64,000 bases of DNA from Dokdonella fugitiva (GTDB taxonomy: Bacteria > Pseudomonadota > Gammaproteobacteria > Xanthomonadales > Rhodanobacteraceae). This document shows positions 6,455-60,043 of the stretch, piece after piece. Where the stretch lies: NCBI RefSeq assembly GCF_014138265.1, contig NZ_JACGXL010000001.1:124001-188000 (forward strand), in the 5' to 3' direction. The notes under the pieces are model-generated. The model was not told the origin of the DNA. It searched no databases and saw only the letters and a list, made by a program, of their open reading frames with translations. The position numbers were made by a program, and so were the translations under genes. The stretch's first letter is position 1. Every line of letters begins with the position of its first letter.

Positions 6455-6530
<76 letters not shown>

Positions 6531-6540
6531 GATTCAGATG

Positions 6541-6569
6541 AAACCCCGGCACGCCGGGGTTTCGTTTTT
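6541..6569 (+). terminator. Rho-independent terminator after tRNA-Gly
   Basis: A strong hairpin, AAACCCCGGC/GCCGGGGTTT with a two-base loop, is followed by cgttttt. It lies 10 bases after the tRNA-Gly CCA end, so the tRNA-Cys gene probably has its own promoter or is reached by read-through. Confidence 0.9.
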
Positions 6570-6616
6570 CTGCCGGACGTCGCAAGATGCACGGCGCGAG
6601 TGATGCGTACCATCAC

Positions 6617-6690
6617 GGCTTGGTGGCAGAGTGGTCATGCAGCGGACTGCAAATCCGCGTACGCCGGTTCGATTCCGACCCAAGCCTCCA
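6617..6690 (+). tRNA. tRNA-Cys (GCA)
   Basis: A 74-base tRNA: acceptor GGCTTGG/CCAAGCC, short D-stem GCA/TGC, anticodon arm GCGGA/TCCGC with loop CTGCAAA, T-loop TTCGATT and encoded CCA. The T-stem GCCGG/CCGAC contains one C-A mismatch, which I have seen in other proteobacterial tRNA-Cys genes. It corresponds to E. coli cysT in the same position. Confidence 0.97.
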
Positions 6691-6722
6691 CTCGCATCGC
6701 GCCACGCGATGCCGGTGACGAA

Positions 6723-6748
6723 GAACCCGCAGCGATGCGGGTTTTTTT
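6723..6748 (+). terminator. Rho-independent terminator after tRNA-Cys
   Basis: The stem AACCCGCA/TGCGGGTT with a GCGA tetraloop runs directly into seven T residues. It lies 32 bases after the tRNA-Cys gene. Confidence 0.9.
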
Positions 6749-6861
6749 GTGCCCTGCGATCCGCGCAAGGAGCATCGGAGGTTGCCCGCGATGGCGTGGC
6801 GCGCCATCGTGCCGATGGCGCGCGCTCCGCGCGCACAGACGCTACCATCGCGTCGTACGCC

Positions 6862-6948
6862 GCCCGGATGGCGAAATCGGTAGCCGCAAGGGACTTAAAA
6901 TCCCTCGACCGCAAGGTCATCCCGGTTCGAGTCCGGGTCCGGGCACCA
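6862..6948 (+). tRNA. tRNA-Leu (TAA)
   Basis: An 87-base class II tRNA with acceptor GCCCGGA/TCCGGGC, anticodon stem GGGA/TCCC with loop CTTAAAA, the long variable arm expected of tRNA-Leu, T-loop TTCGAGT and encoded ACCA end. It reads UUA codons, which are rare in a genome of this GC content. It is the counterpart of E. coli leuZ. No T-rich terminator follows. Confidence 0.97.
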
Positions 6949-31167: not shown

Positions 31168-32844
31168 ATGGAACGCAACGCCGGCCGCCTCGGCCTGCTG
31201 CTCGCTTTCGCCGCGGGGGCCGCGCATGCCGCGCCCGCGCATTACGTCGTGTTCACGCGCGACGCTGCCGGCGTGGTCGAGCCGGTCTTCTACGCGCAGG
31301 TCGAACTCGCCGGCAGCGGCGACGAGGCCCGCACGTTCGATGCCGCCCATGGCGAACGCGTGGCCTGGCATGCCGTGAAGGGCGGCGCGGACCTGGGCGA
31401 GCGCAGCGTCGCGATCCCGGACCTGCGCGGCGAGTTCGCGCGCGATCCGAACCGCGGCGACGGCACGATCGTTTCGACGCGCCCGCGCGCGGCCACGCGC
31501 AGTTTCGTGTTGCGCGTCCCGTTAGGGTCGGCCGACGCGGTCGAATTCGCCGGCGCGGCAGCCGTGCAGCGCTTCGACCTCGCCGCGCTCGCCGCGCGTT
31601 CGGGCGAGCTGCGGCTCGCCGCGCGCGTGCCGCAAGTACAGATCGACCGCTTGCAGGGCGGCGGCAGCCCGGCCAACCGCGTCGACATGCTCGTCGTCGG
31701 CGACGGCTACACCAACGCGCAGCATTCGCTGTTCGATGCTGACGCGGCGATCCTGCACGACGCGTTCTTCGGTCTCACGCCGTACAAGGAATACCAGAGC
31801 TTCGTGAACTGGACGACCGCGTTCATCGCCTCGAACCAGTCCGGCGCGGACCACCCTGCGTACCAGGCCGGCTGCACGCAGGCGACCTGCTGCTCCGATC
31901 CGGACGCGATCGGCGACGTGCATGCTGGCCAGTTCGTCGATACCGCGTTCGACGCGACGTTCTGCGCCTACAACATCCAGCGCCTGCTCGTCGTCGACGA
32001 CGCTTCCGTGCTCGCCGCGGCCGCCGCGTATCCGGACTGGGACAAGATCGTCGTCGTCGTCAACGACGACACCTACGGCGGTTCCGGCGGCTCGCTCTCG
32101 GTCACCTCGACGCATGCGCAGGCGCCGCAGATCGTGCTGCACGAATACGGCCACAGCTTCACCGGGCTTGCCGACGAGTACAGTTCGCCGTACCCGGGTT
32201 TCCCTCCGTGCAGCGATACCGGCGGCACGCCGTGCGAACCCAACGTGACGAACCAGACCATCGCCGCGCAGGTGAAGTGGAACAGTTGGTTCACGCCCGG
32301 CAATCCGATCCCGACGCCGTCGGGAACATCGGGCGTCGGCCTGTTCCAGGGCGCGCGCTATCTCACGACGGGGATGTACCGGCCGGTCGACACGCAGTGC
32401 CTCATGCAGTTCCTCGGCGTGCCGTTCTGCCCGGTCTGCCGGCAGGAATACGTGCGCACGCTCTACCGCGGCGGCTGGGGCGCACCGGCAGCGGGCATCG
32501 ACCTCGTCGAGCCCGGCAGCGAATCGCCCGCGACTGCCGTGCCCGTGCAGTACGTGCCCGGCTCGAACCAGGCGTTCGGCGTGTCGCTGCTGCTGCCGAC
32601 GATCGGCGCGCTCGACGTGCACTGGTACCTCGACGGCAATCCGATCGGCGGCGCGACCTCGGCGACCTACGTGTTCAACCAGGCGGCGTCGACGCCGTCG
32701 TCGCACACGCTGCAGGTGCGCGTGAAGGACACGACCAACCTCGTCGCCGCGGCGATGGCGGGCAGCCTGCTCGATCACCAGCGCAGCTGGACGATCCAGG
32801 TCGGCGGCGACGTTATCTTCCGCAACGGCTTCGACGGCCCGTAA
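31168..32844 (+). CDS. secreted M64-family metallopeptidase
   Basis: A 558-residue exported zinc peptidase of the IgA peptidase M64 family. The signal peptide ends near AAHA (residue 22). A beta-rich N-terminal domain of ~170 residues is followed by the catalytic domain ([12 protein letters not shown], then [14 protein letters not shown] with zinc ligands His325 and His329 and the catalytic Glu326). A C-terminal immunoglobulin-like segment ends with IFRNGFDGP, also found at the end of the heparinase-like protein at 58253. It is transcribed divergently from the SPFH gene and convergently with the dehydrogenase gene downstream. Confidence 0.92.
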
Positions 32845-58252: not shown

Positions 58253-59965
58253 TCAATCGAAGCCGTTGGCGAAGATCGTGTCGGTCGTGCTCAGCTCGAC
58301 CATGTAACCGGTGGTGCCACCGTGCACGTCGAGGCGCCAGCCCGAGTTGAAGGTCTCGTTCTCGTCGCTCTGCGTGGTCCAGTCGAGCGTGCTGAGGGTC
58401 GCGTTCGCGGGCGAGATCACGCGGATCTTCAGCGGCCCCGCCGTCGCGACGAGGCCGTTGACGACCGGCTGCACGGGCGTGTTGACCTGGAACGTCGCGG
58501 TCGTGCCGGCGCCGAGCGTGAACGCGTCGGTGACGGTGAGCGTGCGCGCGGCGAAGTCGATCGTGCGATGCCACGCGCCGACGGCGGCGTCGCCGTCGTA
58601 GGCGGGCGTGAGGTCGGCGACCGCGTGCACCGCGCCGCCGGCGCCGGGCGTGACGGTCATCGTCGAGGTCGTGCCTTCGCGTTGCGGCACGGTCGCGCCG
58701 TCGTGGTCGAAGCGCACGACGTTGTTGGTGTCCGTGCCTTGCTGGATGCCGCTGTGCGTCCACATGTTCTCGGTCGCGGCGAGCCAGTCGCCTTCGAACA
58801 AGGTGAACGCGCCCTGGTCCTGGTGCGCGTGGCTCTGCACGTACGGCCCGGCCGAGAACGCGAGCCACATCGCGCCGGTGTCCCAGCCGGTGCGCGCGAA
58901 CAGCTGGCCGGTGCCGGTCGCGTGGTAGACGAGTTGCGCGGGCGGCGTGCCGGCGGGGCCTGCGGGCAGCAGGTTGTGCCGGTAATTGAAGCCGCTTTCC
59001 ATGTCCTGGTCGGAAATGGTGTGCAGCCACCACGAGGCGTTCGCCTGCGCGGTCGCGTCGTTCGACACGCGGCGCGCTTCGAGCACGAGGTGGCGGTGGT
59101 AGTCGTAGATCACCGGTTCCGACACGCGTGCCTGGTCGCCGATCGGCGCGACGCGGTCGCGCGTCGGCACGGTCGAGTGCAGCCACCACGCGATGCTGTC
59201 GGTCACGTGCGCGTTGGCGTTGCCGATGTCGCTGCCGGTCGAGTCGTGCCAGACGCGGTAGAGCATGAACAAGGTGCCGTGCGAGAGGCCGTAGGCGGTG
59301 CCTTCCTCGCTGCCGCCGCCGGGAATCGTCGCGGTGTAGGCGAGCTGTTCCGGCCAGCGCACGTTCTGCAGCAGGTCCTTCCAGGTCGTGCTGTTCGAGG
59401 CGAGTCCCCAGTACATCGTCGCGCGCAGGAAGCTGTAGTGGTAGTTGTTGGCCGGATCGTCGACACCCCAGCCCGGCCACGCGTGCGGATGGCCGCCCCA
59501 TTGCGCCTGGTCGTGGTGCCAGACGTTCCAGACGGCCTGTTCGGCGTAGTTGCCCCAGCGCGTGCGCTGCGCGGGCGTCACGTGGCCCGCGCACCAGTCG
59601 TAGGTGAGCGCGAGGTCCTCGATCATCGGCCCGACTTCGAGGTACTGGTCGCCCGCGATGTCGGGCGCGTCGCCGCCCGCGATCGCGGCTTCCGCCGCGG
59701 CGACCTGCGCCTCGACCGTCTGCACCGCGAGCGTCGCGTACTGCGCCTGCGCGGTGAGCTTGTACATGTAGGCGGCATCGGCTGCGGAGAAGCCGTAGCC
59801 GGGATTGCCCGCGACGGCATCGTCGACGAAGCCCTTGAAGCGCTGGTATTCGACCGACTGCAGATCAACGAACGAGAGGTCGACGACGATCGCCGCGTGC
59901 GCGTTGCCCGCGAGCAAAGCCGTAGCGAGCGCGACGCCGCGCCAGCGATGGAATCCTTTCATCAT
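58253..59965 (-). CDS. secreted heparinase II/III-like protein
   Basis: A 570-residue exported protein. Residues 1-24 are a signal peptide; the gggagg site fits the ATG at 59965. An N-terminal alpha/alpha barrel (TYDWCAGHVTPAQRTRWGNY, VDDPANNYHYSFLRATMYWG) is followed by the heparinase II/III-like beta domain with QSHAHQDQGAFTLFEGDWLAA and a C-terminal beta-sandwich. The His/Asp pair in SHAHQDQ is the expected catalytic/metal site. The last residues are IFANGFD, the same tag as in the M64 peptidase. It probably cleaves a polyuronide. Confidence 0.87.
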   Translation of the reverse strand: MMKGFHRWRGVALATALLAGNAHAAIVVDLSFVDLQSVEYQRFKGFVDDAVAGNPGYGFSAADAAYMYKLTAQAQYATLAVQTVEAQVAAAEAAIAGGDAPDIAGDQYLEVGPMIEDLALTYDWCAGHVTPAQRTRWGNYAEQAVWNVWHHDQAQWGGHPHAWPGWGVDDPANNYHYSFLRATMYWGLASNSTTWKDLLQNVRWPEQLAYTATIPGGGSEEGTAYGLSHGTLFMLYRVWHDSTGSDIGNANAHVTDSIAWWLHSTVPTRDRVAPIGDQARVSEPVIYDYHRHLVLEARRVSNDATAQANASWWLHTISDQDMESGFNYRHNLLPAGPAGTPPAQLVYHATGTGQLFARTGWDTGAMWLAFSAGPYVQSHAHQDQGAFTLFEGDWLAATENMWTHSGIQQGTDTNNVVRFDHDGATVPQREGTTSTMTVTPGAGGAVHAVADLTPAYDGDAAVGAWHRTIDFAARTLTVTDAFTLGAGTTATFQVNTPVQPVVNGLVATAGPLKIRVISPANATLSTLDWTTQSDENETFNSGWRLDVHGGTTGYMVELSTTDTIFANGFD

Positions 59966-60043
59966 GCACGCCTCCCCGTTGCGATGCGGGCGCATCCTAC
60001 GCCGAGGAACGACGGAGTGTTGCGAATTGCGACACGCAGGGAT

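Follow-up and report, generated by a model that had tools for sequence, protein, structure and literature searches.

The window, by which we mean the whole 64-kb stretch of DNA that was analysed, raises the question of why a heparinase-like protein and an M64 peptidase should end in almost the same residues. The initial annotation had read IFANGFD at the end of the former and IFRNGFDGP at the end of the latter, and both ends were present as it described them. The heparinase-like protein, encoded at window:58253-59995 on the minus strand, ends in ...STTDTIFANGFD*, with the seven codons of the tag core at 58276-58256 and the stop codon at 58255-58253; in the M64 peptidase (window:31168-32844, plus strand) the motif starts at 32815. 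A loosened pattern run over all six frames of the 64-kb window produced two matches only, both C-terminal. The features of the two genes are as follows.

58256..58282, minus strand: C-terminal tag DTIFANGFD of the heparinase-like exported protein, stop codon at 58253-58255
58253..59995, minus strand: gene of the tagged heparinase-like protein, without a Pfam match, with seven relatives
59894..59995, minus strand: signal-peptide features MMKGFHRWRGVALATALLAGNAHA at the heparinase-like N-terminus, crude test positive, cleavage site placed by eye
32809..32835, plus strand: C-terminal tag DVIFRNGFD of the M64 peptidase, followed by GP and the stop codon
31168..32844, plus strand: gene of the tagged M64 (IgA-peptidase family) exported peptidase, with a Pfam match
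31168..31230, plus strand: signal-peptide features at the M64 peptidase N-terminus, crude test positive, cleavage site placed by eye

The M64 peptidase matched Pfam PF09471 (3.7e-39), which upheld its name; the name ‘heparinase-like’ is tentative because Pfam gave nothing for that protein at E 0.001 and its NCBIfam matches to heparin lyases were weak (E 0.03). Seven relatives of the heparinase-like protein, from Dokdonella and others, were found at 53-84% identity, the named relative of highest identity being that of Dokdonella fugitiva (84%). All keep the tag, with changes: orthologues L031-L036 carry IFADGFD, IFANGFEA, IFANGFD, IFANGFDA, IFAHGFE and LFKNGFD, and the L037 orthologue carries VFLDGFETGGVHAWTEAAP. 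Elsewhere in the window, three consecutive tRNA genes at 6455-6945 (plus strand) were the sole Rfam matches.

We then consider the window's own genome (G000, 4.77 Mb), where the pattern [IV]Fx[ND/SG]GF[DE] gave 131 matches compared to one for the reversed control. Sixty-one stretches of this genome, the window included, were read and held 101 matches, one of which extended past the end of its stretch and was excluded. Of the remaining 100, 89 lay within 20 residues of the stop codon, four lay at 21-60 residues and seven deeper inside, contrary to the expectation that a motif without function would be no commoner at C-termini. The tag was followed by 0-4 residues in 75 of the 89 C-terminal cases and by 17 at most. 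These 89 cases yielded a nine-residue consensus, D-x-[IV]-F-x-[DN]-G-F-[DE], with Asp at position -2 in 75, Ile in 79 or Val in 10, Ala at x in 38, Asp in 57 or Asn in 25, and Asp (58) or Glu (31) as the last residue. The IFxNGFE/D motif of the initial annotation is real, but it is longer (D-x precedes IF) and looser ([ND] and [DE], with R or S for G in some genera). Two of the 11 non-terminal cases have the tag at the mature N-terminus, directly behind the signal peptide:

L044, minus strand: N-terminal tag carrier, 511-aa ORF
L062, plus strand: N-terminal tag carrier, 465-aa ORF

The N-terminal tag of L044 is kept in three orthologues (L243-L245; 76-81% identity), in which the signal peptides differ and the mature N-terminus reads D-x-IFADGFEF in all. 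Several other internal tags precede further domains.

The third positions of the Gly codon of the tag vary among the 89 cases, and the 27 bases 3' of the stop codon hold no shared sequence, from which we conclude that the protein is under selection here. The last Phe codon, though, is always TTC (89 of 89), and synonymous variation thus does not extend to every site of the tag. This constancy is one of few observations on the side of a tag without function, which would be either a strand shared through a common domain or a repetitive DNA element supplying gene ends. The long tag form of Acidobacteriota, described below, also resembles the opening strand of some beta-sandwich domains, and DGFESG occurs internally in two other Acidobacteriota proteins (L130, L131). 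On the other hand, variation is seen in the Gly codon and at position 3, and the sequence after the stop codon is not shared, on which ground a DNA repeat at gene ends was rejected; the carriers fall into 47 BLAST clusters; and the tag is kept, with changes, in seven relatives as distant as 53% identity. A domain strand, an alternative that the initial annotation had allowed, was rejected because the structure model of the heparinase-like protein places the tag (residues 572-580) in a disordered stretch past the last strand, although this model is mediocre (eight sequences, mean pLDDT 59.5) and its evidence weak. We consider a functionless motif hardly credible, and we are highly confident that the tag is a real, protein-level tag of the sorting type.

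The clustering of the carriers was performed on the 89 tagged proteins after removal of the first 30 and last 25 residues, and the largest of the 47 clusters had 13 members. Family counts for 83 scanned carriers, covering the first 25 entries of each list, were led by choice-of-anchor Q (12) and beta helices (8), with DUF5122/delta-60 repeats (5) and FG-GAP (4) next; there were one or two carriers each of the subtilase, carboxypeptidase, phospholipase C and M64 families. A signal peptide followed by at most one further TM segment was predicted in 48 of 68 tagged genes compared to 59 of 249 untagged genes of the same stretches, using a crude predictor with one rule for the start codon; the 68 are those of the 89 C-terminal tag ORFs that passed the gene filter (21 failed), and 20 of them had no predicted signal peptide. 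A permissive version that tried every start gave 54/68 and 110/249, and the lowest hydrophobicity threshold gave 50/68 and 104/249. Raising the threshold first shrank and finally abolished the contrast, which was gone at the highest setting (9/68 tagged, 39/249 untagged). By this crude predictor, Sec/Tat signal peptides are enriched in the carriers and not universal. The tag thus occurs on about a hundred largely unrelated exported proteins of G000, usually C-terminally and only rarely at the start of the mature protein. The proposal of the initial annotation that the shared end is a functional tag of the sorting type is well supported by these clusters and by the signal-peptide enrichment.

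The tagged proteins include a family that is exported folded, and for that reason we picked type II secretion (T2SS) as the candidate partner: one of the 83 carriers is a phosphocholine phospholipase C, a kind of protein exported folded by Tat. Secretin (GspD) genes were searched for with TIGR02517 across 62 genomes. Of 29 tagged genomes of the order, 27 had two GspD above the cut-off, the others being G373 with one and G496 with one plus fragments. The 25 untagged genomes had one GspD in 19 cases, two in four (G394, G408, G421, G439) and none in two. In a tree of 59 GspD, on which 24 of the 29 tagged genomes were placed, clade A held all 24 together with G394, G421 and G439, and clade B comprised 31 rows. 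The second GspD of G408, a genome without tags, joined clade A on a long branch. A gspC with an aligning PDZ region adjoined the clade-A gspD in 27 of 27 loci, as judged by BLAST and alignment.

The system of clade A, here T2SS-A, was represented in G000 by gspC, gspD, gspE and gspF, with the GspC-A gene at C7:86809-87696 followed by gspD, gspE, one further gene and gspF. The gene between gspE and gspF (L158:12686-14122, minus strand) encodes a 478-residue protein with an export-like N-terminus that had neither a Pfam nor an NCBIfam match. GspC-A itself matched PF11356 (2.5e-22) and, narrowly, PDZ_2 (27.4, cut-off 27); the NCBIfam GspC models fell below their cut-offs (TIGR01713, 99.1 against 101.6; NF041515, 106 against 150). 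Its structure model shows a TM helix, an HR domain and a PDZ domain, the architecture of a PDZ-type GspC, and the gene adjoins gspD. The GspC-A profile matched OutC at 6.7e-39, and the PDZ domains of EpsC and PulC were matched by fold (PDB). In the clade-B operon of G000, the protein encoded where gspC would be expected had no Pfam match. An excerpt of PMC11981180 describes XpsC as having a single helix instead of the PDZ fold, and we read the clade-B protein as a GspC of this Xps kind. Clade B also holds the single GspD of G165, G416, G435 and G474 (f2, taken to be Xanthomonadaceae), which makes the Xps and Xcs systems of Xanthomonas likely counterparts; these four genomes and G408 have no tags.

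The tag is patchily distributed. In the class sample, each of 273 genomes other than G000 had 0-4 matches. In the family sample (117 genomes) the tag was common in genera g1, g226, g236, g238 and part of g230, with 0-3 matches elsewhere, and in the order sample (151 genomes) it was common in families f173, f174, f175, f176, f179 (except G405, with none), f181 and f182, less frequent in f178 and f180, and at 0-1 in f177. Family f2, which we infer to be Xanthomonadaceae (f1 being Rhodanobacteraceae), had 0-1 matches in 23 of 24 genomes, the exception being G466 with 33. The tag is therefore spread over the order, but it is near zero in most genera of the window's own family and in those 23 f2 genomes. 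Most matches outside G000 were counted by pattern rather than read individually; of 29 loci read in eight other genomes, 27 had the tag within 22 residues of the stop codon.

Genomes of g255 (f180) carry T2SS-A with 0-3 canonical tag matches, and because they seemed tagless we searched for a variant. Reading 400 kb of G439 by eye, we found that four of 99 signal-peptide-like ORFs end in IFxxRF[DE]-type tails (LFQDRFE.., IFHDRFEQ, IFGSRFD and IFRSRFE..), three of them within one 20 kb stretch. The variant, [IL]Fx[DS]RF[DE], has Arg in place of Gly, as in stretches L236 and L238 of G439. Apart from the four read in G439 the variant was counted by a pattern with Arg (or Ser) for Gly, which gave 7-60 matches in 14 of 15 g255 genomes and 0-1 in controls. 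Matches with Ser for Gly were also seen in other families, such as f174 and f179.

Across the 151 genomes of the order, with at least eight canonical or variant matches and a GspC cut-off of 1e-30 (both thresholds set after the tables had been seen), tag and GspC-A agreed in 139: 74 genomes had both and 65 neither, compared to three with the tag only (G430, G443, G488) and nine with GspC-A and few tag matches (G394, G403, G444, G459, G465, G495 and the incomplete genomes G436, G452 and G454). Canonical matches alone, at a threshold of at least five, gave 62 with both, five with the tag only, 21 with GspC only and 63 with neither, and 16 of the 21 belong to f180. These genomes are related, so Fisher values overstate the association. 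In the family sample, GspC-A (E<1e-30) was present in 26 of 28 genomes with at least eight tags, the two exceptions being assemblies of 680 and 770 contigs, compared to six of 89 others. The six (G298, G316, G329, G357, G370, G381) all belong to g247 and gave weaker matches; the g247 GspC is diverged yet matches the PDZ-type profile (E 1e-34 to 1e-46), these genomes have 0-1 canonical tags, and a further tag variant may exist there. Within g230, three genomes had both the tag and GspC-A and four had neither. On the GspD-B tree of 31 genomes, where gain and loss look alike, T2SS-A changes four times and the tag five, giving four independent pairs in the same direction (three and a tie in some pairings; p 0.125-0.25). 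The presence of the tag thus follows the presence of T2SS-A across the order, a relationship that is correlational only. The initial annotation had named no partner for the tag, and these results point to this second system.

We lean towards the proposal, with slightly more belief than doubt, that the tag is a short linear signal addressing proteins to T2SS-A as a dedicated second type II system. The cargo would leave the cytoplasm by Sec or Tat and fold in the periplasm, the exposed tag would dock on T2SS-A, and the folded protein would then be moved across the outer membrane by this system. Perhaps the tag is read by the PDZ domain of GspC, a part of the proposal that we hold less firmly; as a guess at the contact, the tag could be held as an added beta strand anchored by the side chains of its two Phe residues. 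PDZ domains generally bind a C-terminus that is free, and the tails of 0-17 residues and the N-terminal position of some tags are at odds with such a ligand. More speculatively, and with doubt outweighing belief, this might be a portable linear code for the whole T2SS class, in which the PDZ domain of GspC would need no more than nine residues, placed at either terminus of a folded protein, for recognition, and the code would change along with its reader (Gly to Arg in g255).

Excerpts of PMC7949064 and PMC12369372 treat T2SS signals as structural or composite, and the latter reports PDZ-dependent secretion of one substrate in Vibrio. The systems that they describe, OutC-PelI and EpsC-VesB, likewise have recognition by the PDZ region of a GspC with HR and PDZ domains, and an exposed nine-residue loop of PelI contacts both GspC and GspD; those signals are composite and substrate-specific, whereas here one linear motif stands on about 100 proteins. 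No linear universal or conserved T2SS signal is known according to excerpts of PMC12369372 and PMC11981180, and we found no description of the tag in open-licence PMC papers. How T2SS chooses its folded cargo is an old question, and an address tag, if real, would be a label of a kind long thought nonexistent. Occurring on about a hundred proteins, with natural variants and absences, it would make cargo choice directly testable; the secretomes of a large bacterial group would become readable from sequence, and a small portable tag would be available for the export of folded proteins. The type IX secretion C-terminal domain likewise gives many cargoes one C-terminal address for an outer-membrane exporter, except that it is a folded domain of about 70-100 residues, from Bacteroidota, and the tag is nine residues.

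PDZ proteases read C-terminal aromatic motifs, and the GspC-A profile also matches the PDZ domains of DegP/DegQ; it could accordingly be imagined that a periplasmic protease of the DegP, DegS or Prc kind recognises the tag through its PDZ domain as a quality-control mark. PDZ-only matches are also frequent in tagless genomes, which leaves the patchy tag unexplained by such a mark, and in our judgement it would be odd for a degradation mark to be retained on about 100 proteins. We regard this explanation as very improbable.

What stands in place of the tag in a relative that lacks it also speaks for the address signal for T2SS-A. Genome G281, of which 800 kb was read, is congeneric with the tagged G348, G361 and G373 and has neither the tag nor T2SS-A. 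For 11 of the 89 tagged proteins, BLAST (E<=1e-10) found homologues in G281, mostly over part of the length and at 27-58% identity; their best hits fall on six ORFs, four of which lie in one stretch and one of which (L279) looks like a spurious frame. All six lack the tag at their end, and three have IPTL-CTERM-like tails. TIGR04174 matched two of these three tails, one above its cut-off and one just below. The tag therefore occupies the place of another lineage's sorting signal, with the reservation that these are homologues rather than established orthologues. The tails of L248 and L256 are IPTL-CTERM-like, and for these NCBIfam also gives midcut-by-XrtH. A regular expression for IPTL-like tails gave one match in 800 kb of G281 and none in 756 kb of G000 or 400 kb of G439, but it missed two of the three observed tails, so its zeros say little.

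PEP-CTERM, IPTL-CTERM, GlyGly-CTERM and MYXO-CTERM are likewise short ends on dozens of unrelated exported proteins in scattered genomes, and the tag shares with PEP-, IPTL- and GlyGly-CTERM the habit of marking many such proteins per genome. In these three, a signature motif is followed by a TM helix and then by basic residues at the C-terminus. The tag differs from all four in having neither TM helix nor basic cluster and in its variable tail (0-17 residues without TM in 89 cases); it also occurs at the N-terminus and implies no sortase. NCBIfam had no match to three real long tag tails and two approximate short ones, and no NCBIfam model was found for the tag.

These comparisons bear on the maturation signal that the initial annotation had entertained, one cut or re-joined by a sortase-like or rhomboid-like enzyme. 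A tag standing where some homologues have IPTL-CTERM would suit such a signal, and there are other short C-terminal signals with a similar habit that undergo processing, according to an excerpt of PMC3237569. In the tails read, neither a TM segment nor a basic cluster lies behind the motif, and tail length varies. The two G000 proteins tagged at the mature N-terminus, one with three orthologues alike, speak against a C-terminal maturation signal, and a sortase substrate was rejected on the same ground. Maturation is in our view improbable.

A stronger competitor, still an unlikely one, is surface retention: the carriers would leave through T2SS-A, or by some other route, for reasons unrelated to the tag, which would then bind a receptor on the cell surface or matrix. 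The choice-of-anchor families among the carriers and the IPTL-CTERM-like ends of some homologues in the tagless relative are consistent with retention, and a tag that is not strictly terminal is what would be expected of a ligand. Retention would also fit the tagged Acidobacteriota that lack GspC-A. No receptor candidate is known from the families searched (GspD and GspC), and retention alone leaves the joint change of tag and T2SS-A on the tree unexplained.

Two Acidobacteriota carry a long form of the tag, FxDGFE[ST]G, in number; it had 38 matches in G515, 88 in G532 and 0-2 in each of the other genomes of a sample of 149. The loci are:

L098, L113, L119, L125, L133, L134, L141-L148 and L150-L157: long-form tag loci of G515 and G532

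In the loci read, the proteins end in [ILV]FxDGFE[ST]GxxxxW(SxxxP) or close to it, with 7, 8, 11 or 12 residues behind the core. No full-length GspC-A was found in G515 or G532, and one secretin locus read in G532 was a type IV pilus cluster (pilMNOPQ). Either another reader serves the long form in Acidobacteriota, or T2SS-A is not the reader. Ends of the two genomes resemble [ILV]FxDGFESGDTSxW(SxxxP), and a lone C-terminal case was observed in a third genome (L138, G525).
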